Source: Pseudomonadota bacterium
GTDB taxonomy: Bacteria > Pseudomonadota > Gammaproteobacteria > Burkholderiales > SG8-39
Length of the DNA: 64,000 bases
Direction: 5' to 3'
Assembly: GCA_021811085.1 (NCBI GenBank)
Contig: JAJZPQ010000010.1
Span: forward strand, 1 to 64,000
The notes beneath the pieces are model-generated. The model ran no database searches. It was not told the origin of the DNA and saw only the letters and a list, made by a program, of their open reading frames with translations. Position 1 is the first letter of the stretch, and each line of letters starts with the position of its first letter. Positions 1,880 to 26,693 of the stretch are shown here, piece after piece. The translations under genes and the position numbers were made by a program.

Positions 1880-1889
1880 CTTGTAGAGC

Positions 1890-1958
1890 CCGTAACAAAG
1901 GTTATTTTGTTACGGCGTTACGGCCCGATTCAGGGGGCACGAGGGGAGCGATCCCCTC
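1890..1958 (+). repeat. Two-hairpin intergenic element, copy A (CCGTAACAAA-6nt-TTTGTTACGG ... GAGGGGA-GCGA-TCCCCTC)
   Basis: Two perfect inverted repeats; same architecture as copy B at 26608-26668. Confidence 0.75.
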
Positions 1959-2076
1959 ACATCGAGGCCCGCACGCGATCAATATATTTGCGCTGCAGGC
2001 GTGAATATTTCGATTTTTCTTCGTCTGCGATTGGGTATAGAATTGCTTCCCCTCCCGCAAAAAACTCTAGAACGAA

Positions 2077-6270: not shown

Positions 6271-6316
6271 GCGCTCGCCTCGCCCGCGATCTGCGAATTT
6301 GCGCGCTACGCGCGCC

Positions 6317-6367
6317 AACCGTGATTCCTGTACGGATAAAAAACATATCCGTACAGGAATCACGGTT
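6317..6367. repeat. Perfect 22-bp inverted repeat with 7-nt loop (hairpin H1)
   Basis: AACCGTGATTCCTGTACGGATA - AAAAACA - TATCCGTACAGGAATCACGGTT. Confidence 0.95.
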
Positions 6368-6408
6368 CTGGTTAACACCAAACAACAAGACGTGGGGGTT
6401 TTATACAA

Positions 6409-6459
6409 GATCACCGATTGTGCACGGATGTGCTGTTCATCCGTGCGCAATCGGTGATC
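6409..6459. repeat. 22-bp inverted repeat with 7-nt loop (hairpin H2; one mismatch, a G-U pair as RNA)
   Basis: GATCACCGATTGTGCACGGATG - TGCTGTT - CATCCGTGCGCAATCGGTGATC. Confidence 0.95.
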
Positions 6460-6460
6460 C

Positions 6461-6484
6461 GCGCGGACGGGTTCTCGTCCGCGC
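6461..6484. repeat. 9-bp perfect inverted repeat with 6-nt loop (hairpin H3)
   Basis: GCGCGGACG - GGTTCT - CGTCCGCGC, starting one base after H2. Confidence 0.85.
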
Positions 6485-6568
6485 AACTTCGCAATCCTGC
6501 TGCAAGGGAAGGCGCGATTTTGTTCCGTGCTGCTAGAATCCGCGTTTATCCGCCGTCGGCGCCAGCCC

Positions 6569-25193: not shown

Positions 25194-26603
25194 ATGAGCA
25201 AGAACACACAAAAGAAGAAAGCGCGGCCGCGCGCCGCCTGGTCGGGGCGCTTTGCCGAACCGGTCGCCGAGCGGGTGCAGCGCTATACCGCTTCGGTCGC
25301 ATTCGACCAACGCCTGGCCGAGCACGATATCCGCGGCTCGCTTGCGCATGCGCGCATGCTCGCCGCCTGCGCGGTAATCTCCAAGCGCGACCTCGCCGCA
25401 ATCGAATCCGGCATGCGCACCATCCTGGCGGAACTGCGCGGCGGCAAGTTCAAGTGGTCGCTGGCGAGCGAGGACGTGCACCTCAACATCGAACGCCGCC
25501 TCACCGCGCTCGCGGGCGACGCCGGCAAGCGCCTGCACACCGCGCGCTCGCGCAACGACCAGGTGGCGACCGACGTGCGCCTGTGGCTGCGCGACGCGAT
25601 CGATGCGATCAGCGTCCAGCTCGCGGCACTGCAGGCGAGCCTGCTCGGCCAGGCCGAGCACCACGCCGGCACGGTGATGCCCGGCTTCACCCATCTGCAG
25701 GTGGCGCAACCGGTGACGTTCGGCCACCACCTCATGGCCTATTTCGAGATGTTCGCGCGCGACCGCGAACGGCTGGCCGATTGCCGCAAGCGCGTGAACC
25801 GCCTGCCGCTGGGCGCAGCCGCGCTCGCCGGCACCTCCTATCCGATCGATCGCGACATGGTGGCGCAAGCCCTGGGCTTTGACGGCGTCTGCGCCAATTC
25901 GCTGGACGCAGTGTCGGACCGCGACTTCGCCATCGAGTTCTGCGCTGCGGCCGCGCTCATCATGACCCATATCTCGCGCCTGTCGGAGGAATTGGTGCTG
26001 TGGATGAGCCCGCGCTACGGCTTTATCCGGCTGCCCGACCGCTTCTGCACCGGATCTTCGATCATGCCGCAGAAAAAGAACCCGGACGTGCCCGAACTCG
26101 CGCGCGGCAAGACCGGACGCGTGGCCGGCCACCTGATGGCGCTGCTGATGCTGATGAAGGCGCAGCCGCTCGCCTACAACAAGGACAATCAGGAGGACAA
26201 GGAACCGCTGTTCGACAGCGTCGACACGGTCTCCGACACGCTCGCGATATTCACCGACATGGTCGCCGGCATCGAGGTCGACGCGGACGCAATGCGCGCG
26301 GCGGCACTGGAGGGCCACTCGACCGCGACCGATCTCGCCGACTATCTGGTGAAAAAAGGCCTGCCGTTTCGCGACGCGCACGAAGCGGTCGCGCGCGCGG
26401 TGCGCGCCGCGGATGCGCGCGGCTGCGACCTCGCCACGCTCGGACTGGATGAGTTGCGCCAGTTCTCGCCGCTGGTCGGCGCCGACGTGTTCAAGGTACT
26501 GACGCTCGAAGGCTCGCTCGCGAGCCGCAACCATGTCGGCGGCACCGCGCCCGCGCGCGTGCGCGCCGCGGTCAAGCAAGCGCACAGGAGGCTCAAGGCC
26601 TAA
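25194..26603 (+). CDS. argH: Argininosuccinate lyase
   Basis: [66 protein letters not shown] 25194 chosen over 25146. Confidence 0.97.
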
Positions 26604-26607
26604 GATT

Positions 26608-26668
26608 CCGTTGCAAAATGATTTTTGCAACGGCCAGTCTAGGGGAGTATGAGGGGATGTATCCCCTC
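26608..26668 (+). repeat. Two-hairpin intergenic element, copy B (CCGTTGCAAA-6nt-TTTGCAACGG ... GAGGGGA-TGTA-TCCCCTC)
   Basis: Same architecture as copy A at 1890-1958, with compensatory differences in stem 1; 4 nt after the argH stop. Confidence 0.75.
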
Positions 26669-26693
26669 ATTTTGAATTAGGCTTTAAGCCGTC

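Follow-up and report, generated by a model that had tools for sequence, protein, structure and literature searches.

A two-hairpin intergenic repeat of Burkholderiales genomes is a short mobile DNA element, very probably of the IS5 type, that often lies on stop codons

Results

The window, by which we mean the whole 64,000-nt stretch of DNA analysed, carries two intergenic loci (copies A and B) that a preliminary description had presented as a pair of hairpins each. Copy A is located between a gene for a UbiH-like FAD monooxygenase and a dus (dusB-like) gene, as judged by Pfam domains of the neighbours, and copy B has argH on one side and a Ser/Thr kinase gene on the other. Each is a copy of a mobile, non-coding DNA element of ∼91 bp with the following parts:

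1881..1979 (approximate ends), + strand: copy A of the element, match to covariance model R1 at 43.5 bits, 3′ inverted repeat decayed
1890..1915, + strand: hairpin 1 of copy A, made up of the left terminal inverted repeat and, after it, an inverted copy of that repeat
1916..1923, + strand: 8-nt CGTTACGG, a duplication of the hairpin arm in copy A
1941..1958, + strand: hairpin 2 of copy A, GAGGGGA-GCGA-TCCCCTC
26599..26689, + strand: copy B, the full-length element, R1 match at 92.8 bits (E 1.7e–32)
26601..26603, + strand: left TNA target copy (TAA) of copy B, doubling as the argH stop codon, with the ASL_C2 domain just upstream
26604..26618, + strand: left terminal inverted repeat of copy B, GATTCCGTTGCAAAA
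26608..26633, + strand: hairpin 1 of copy B
26651..26668, + strand: hairpin 2 of copy B, extending to 26649–26670
26669..26684, + strand: right terminal inverted repeat of copy B (ATTTTGAATTAGGCTT)
26685..26687, + strand: right TNA target copy (TAA) of copy B

The element is bounded by inverted repeats that follow the target bases (TNA, then GARNCYGTTKCAAAATGA); the terminal repeats read GAACCCGTTGCAAAATGA at the left end and GAGTCTGTTGCAA(A/T)ATGA, read inward, at the right. When copies are oriented, the 5′ half runs from TNA through the left repeat GARYCYGTTGCAAAATGA (variants GTAACAAA, GTTGCAAA, CATTTC and GCTGCAAA) to an inverted copy of that repeat, the two together making hairpin 1, and the 3′ half consists of a spacer TTTAGGGGAG(CAC or TAT), hairpin 2, the right repeat (the hairpin-1 arm in a third version) and TNA. 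The sequences and coordinates first given for hairpin 1 (1890–1915 and 26608–26633) and hairpin 2 (1941–1958 and 26651–26668) proved exact, as did the 8-nt arm duplication of copy A, which is absent from the other copies read. Stem and loop sizes are also as described, except that hairpin 1 of copy B is better drawn with 11 bp and a 4-nt loop and that its hairpin 2 reaches 9 bp. The two-hairpin unit is real but had been drawn too short: beyond hairpin 2, on the 3′ side, it extends into a stretch that repeats its 5′ end in inverted form. Long forms of 118–140 bp have nested hairpins inside the hairpin-2 loop; loci L055, L059, L080, L104 and L113 are of this kind, with one or two extra GC-rich hairpins whose sequence type is common across copies. 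At another locus (L099 640–816, G004:C199) two copies lie head to tail with a common end and a period of 85 bp.

Hairpin 2, with up to two mismatches allowed, is found twice in the window versus 0.15 expected, and the palindrome GAGGGGANNNNTCCCCTC, with at most one mismatch, 32 times in the own genome (4.48 Mb, 148 contigs) versus once for the reversed pattern. Since these counts are far above expectation, the hairpin pairs are not a matter of chance. Covariance model R1, used to find copies, confirms that there are more of them, with ∼60 in the own genome, and gives matches in all 13 same-genus genomes (30 to at least 71 each) and, patchily, in 13 of 22 genomes from other genera of the host family (at least one match each). 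None of 24 genomes from other families of the order matches R1, so that 27 of the 60 genomes searched carry the element and none of these lies outside the host family; the viral contigs searched gave no match either. Named carriers are uncultured Burkholderiales or Betaproteobacteria assemblies. Metagenome assemblies titled Klebsiella pneumoniae and Bordetella parapertussis (L214, L215, L260 and others) also carry it and look mislabelled. In line with the preliminary description, which recognised no named family, Rfam covariance models gave no hit at gathering score in the window and, for the element itself at 12 loci, no hit with E ≤ 1.

Comparison with relatives shows many of these sites empty. 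At the copy B site nine same-genus genomes lack the element, with flanks about 81–87% identical, and there the argH stop codon runs directly into the kinase gene; two further genomes (G008 and G010) have what looks like a degenerate longer insert. The element is also missing from the copy A site in most same-genus genomes, and when the joined flanks of twelve further copies were used as queries, several gave continuous matches in relatives, that is empty sites. The copies are insertions, since close relatives have neither B nor A, nor the majority of the others tested, at the corresponding positions. At the ubiH–dusB junction, the copy A site, genome G005 (L157) has a different two-hairpin insert of ∼100 bp, perhaps a divergent relative.

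The middle base of TNA is concordant between the two ends in 34 of 55 copies versus 20.5 after shuffling (P ∼ 1e–4). This target duplication is often degraded, with 16 of 29 clean TNA pairs in agreement. A TA duplication, suggested by copy B alone, was dropped when more empty sites showed TNA.

Element ends often coincide with stop codons. On the left, the element provides the upstream gene's stop codon, or overlaps it, in 42 of 99 cases; on the right, it does so for an opposite-strand gene running towards it in 35 of 74. This amounts to 42–47% of cases where the neighbouring gene ends at the element, and only three of 179 copies are inside an ORF (gene calls for these counts are based on open frames and codon-position GC only). 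A literature search on bacterial MITEs with stop codons returned related cases, the family of copies A and B not being among them.

The covariation between arms noticed in the preliminary description is significant across copies, its score being reached by none of 500 shuffles. A best 10-bp stem with at least nine pairs is present in 77% of 214 copies, versus 22% after exchange of arms among copies and 0.5% after shuffling of letters. Agreement of the left arm is better with the inner arm (9.3 of 10 positions) than with the right repeat (6.1 of 10), the former value being favoured by the choice of hairpins for pairing. The pair just outside hairpin 2 covaries as well (T-A in 105 copies, C-G in 79). 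Mismatches in stem 1 comprise 44 G-U versus 68 A-C, the opposite of what RNA selection on the element's strand predicts; in stem 2 they are 27 G-U versus 15 A-C (P = 0.09). Across 13 shared insertion sites stem 1 diverges by 11.9% and non-stem parts by 15.1% (P = 0.22), and stem 2 by 3.3%, a conservation inflated by the fetching of many copies through an exact stem-2 match. Paired double changes that keep Watson–Crick pairing are few and confined to three shared sites, one of which may represent two separate insertions. A supposed compensatory pair in L140 versus L354 was rejected, as its two changes sit in neighbouring pairs and break them. These two loci are one shared insertion, in which the G001 copy differs from the G012 copy, mostly by A-to-G changes, beyond what the 95–96% identical flanks show.

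No intact transposase with exactly the element's ends was found in the genus among PF13358, PF13340 and PF01609 loci. An IS630/Tc1-mariner partner was rejected, as the PF13358 (DDE_3) loci lack such ends; PF13340 and PF01609 transposases have different inverted repeats of their own, with one exception. This exception, the PF01609 locus L335 of sister genome G002, retains the last ∼90 residues of a transposase (PF13586, 9.6e–9; PF01609, 4e–7) followed directly by CATTTTGAAATGGGTTC and TAA, the end reading ..TTCATTTTGAAATGGGTTC and TAA. Its relatives on plasmids are annotated as IS5 family and include ISJp4 and ISBugl2. ISJp4 on pJP4 has two overlapping open frames and ends in TTA-GAGACCGTTTCAAAA and TTA-GAGACTGTTTCAAAA, so the MITE, the remnant and ISJp4-type elements of Burkholderiales have ends of one kind. 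Relatives of the remnant occur in five of 98 host-family genomes and not in the own genome; draft metagenome assemblies often lose multi-copy IS, and this absence is therefore weak evidence. Locus L246 was considered as an autonomous copy and dropped, since its two MITEs flank a gene unlike a transposase.

Discussion

The two loci are copies of a new MITE family of a known kind of element, and a new RNA would be the wrong label for them. Very probably the family is a non-autonomous IS5-family MITE of the ISJp4/IS427 type. Short terminal repeats with a 2–3-bp target duplication, as found here, are those by which the IS427 group of the IS5 family is recognised, and a TNA target is a feature of that group. 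Placing ISJp4 under IS427 is our own reading; IS427-group elements are described with two overlapping open frames, and those of Paracoccus have inverted repeats of 13–21 bp and mostly 2-bp direct repeats (PMC3281130). Several observations weigh against the MITE reading: the interior differs from that of the IS and only the ends are common, a partner with the exact ends was not found intact in the genus, and the target duplication is imperfect in many copies.

The simplest reading had at first been selection on structure. As RNA, this would mean a 3′-UTR, riboregulator or small RNA with both hairpins under host selection that spread as a repeat, and the arm-to-arm covariation, the stable folds (z –3.7 to –5.0), the few paired double changes at shared sites and the slow change of stem 2 relative to non-stem parts (3.3% versus 15.1%) all speak for it, together with a slight excess of copies between two same-sense genes (53 versus 32). 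However, stem-2 conservation owes part of its strength to how copies were fetched, no Rfam family matches, and presence or absence of the element differs among close relatives. Host-RNA selection is not supported, because in stem 1 G-U is not favoured over A-C and, at shared sites, the stem evolves at roughly the rate of the remaining element; the lack of a G-U excess, together with the near-symmetric seating on stop codons of genes of either strand at both ends, leads us to read the element as DNA rather than RNA. Given also the transposon ends, the TNA target duplication and the empty sites, we consider selection on RNA structure improbable. Function as intrinsic or bidirectional transcription terminators at gene ends would account for the many copies at gene 3′ ends, and a loose terminator scan accepts hairpin 2 of copy B; it rejects that of copy A, the uninterrupted T-run after the copy B stem is short, and 27 of 179 copies lie between divergent genes, which makes this function highly improbable. 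Two palindromes per unit, intergenic position and high copy number would also suit a REP/BIME-type palindrome mobilised by a RAYT (TnpA-REP) protein. We know of no REPs with terminal inverted repeats, TNA duplication or IS5-type ends, whereas the element has all three, and we give this origin hardly any credence.

A different matter is how the arms of hairpin 1 stay matched. Template-switch (quasipalindrome) replication errors rewrite one arm from the other and so mimic compensatory change, an established mechanism (PMC8794818). They could produce the paired changes of hairpin 1 with no selection at all and are compatible with the MITE reading. Such errors fit the alike behaviour of both strands, the adjacency of paired changes (AA/TG in stem 1 when copies A and B are compared, and several pairs at L409/L039) and the local duplication in copy A. 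On the other side, one-sided changes outnumber paired ones at shared sites, so template-switch repair would have to be inefficient, and very different elements at one site may be either orthologous or separate insertions. This origin of the paired changes is quite possible, short of being probable. At a few loci a single site has stem-1 variants that differ and yet are each paired, so that structural selection may still play some part. It looks as if arm matching in stem 1 belongs to the lineage as it spreads, or results from template switching, and owes less to host selection acting on individual copies; a requirement at the level of transposition, or template-switch repair, fits the paired arms better than host RNA selection does.

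For the IS5-type MITE we propose that a transposase provided in trans binds to the repeats at the ends of the unit and integrates it at (Y)TNA(R), a target that in GC-rich host genomes would often be a stop codon. The stop could be restored by the duplicated TNA, or by TTA joined to the G that opens the repeat, which yields TAG, and such insertions would therefore be harmless and persist. In hairpin 1, the left repeat with its own inverted copy, the match between arms is probably maintained on DNA, by an advantage of the internal palindrome for transposition or by template-switch errors that re-perfect the hairpin. A further idea, which we regard as rather doubtful, is that the inverted copy of the left repeat inside the element has a function of its own, forming a hairpin or cruciform at the element's end that stays matched across diverging subfamilies because transposition needs it, with the (Y)TNA(R) target and the first base restoring the stop codon of the gene at the insertion site.

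The closest known systems are ISJp4 and ISBugl2 (IS5 family; IS427-like, with two overlapping transposase ORFs). The terminal repeats of ISJp4, flanked by TTA/TAA, match the MITE ends GARNCYGTTKCAAAA plus TNA, and a transposase relative with such ends survives as the remnant in the sister genome; ISJp4, however, is ∼0.9 kb and transposase-coding, whereas the MITE is non-coding and resembles it in the ends only. To our knowledge neither Correia elements of Neisseria nor RUP of Streptococcus pneumoniae are of IS5/TNA type, and their sequence is unrelated to that of copies A and B. They are alike in being abundant short MITEs, mostly intergenic, and MITE transcripts in general can form hairpins (review PMC10969869). 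MITEAba12 of Acinetobacter (113 bp, related to ISAba12; PMC6382973) is likewise short, non-autonomous and derived from an IS, and has terminal repeats. One of its copies is fused to a gene 3′ end and provides the stop codon of that gene, but ends, target and host of MITEAba12 are different.

A mobile element family can thus mimic a covarying structured RNA, with three related arms, compensatory changes and stable folds, and yet lack the strand signature that RNA selection would leave. The family also clearly illustrates a MITE for which, because of its target, the stop codon is the safest place to land at either end, and should be useful for annotation of gene ends in a poorly known Burkholderiales family.

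Another repeat is present in the window as a remnant at 6297–6486, with large palindromes (TACGGAT.. and GATCACCGATTG.. hairpins). At L309 (1928–2205) and L310 there are fuller relatives of ∼270 bp, whose ends (GAAACGGTTGCAAAATGAG / GAGTTCGTTTCAAAATGAG) are of the type seen in copies A and B. Judging from these ends, the repeat probably represents another MITE family, larger than the first and served by a partner of similar kind.
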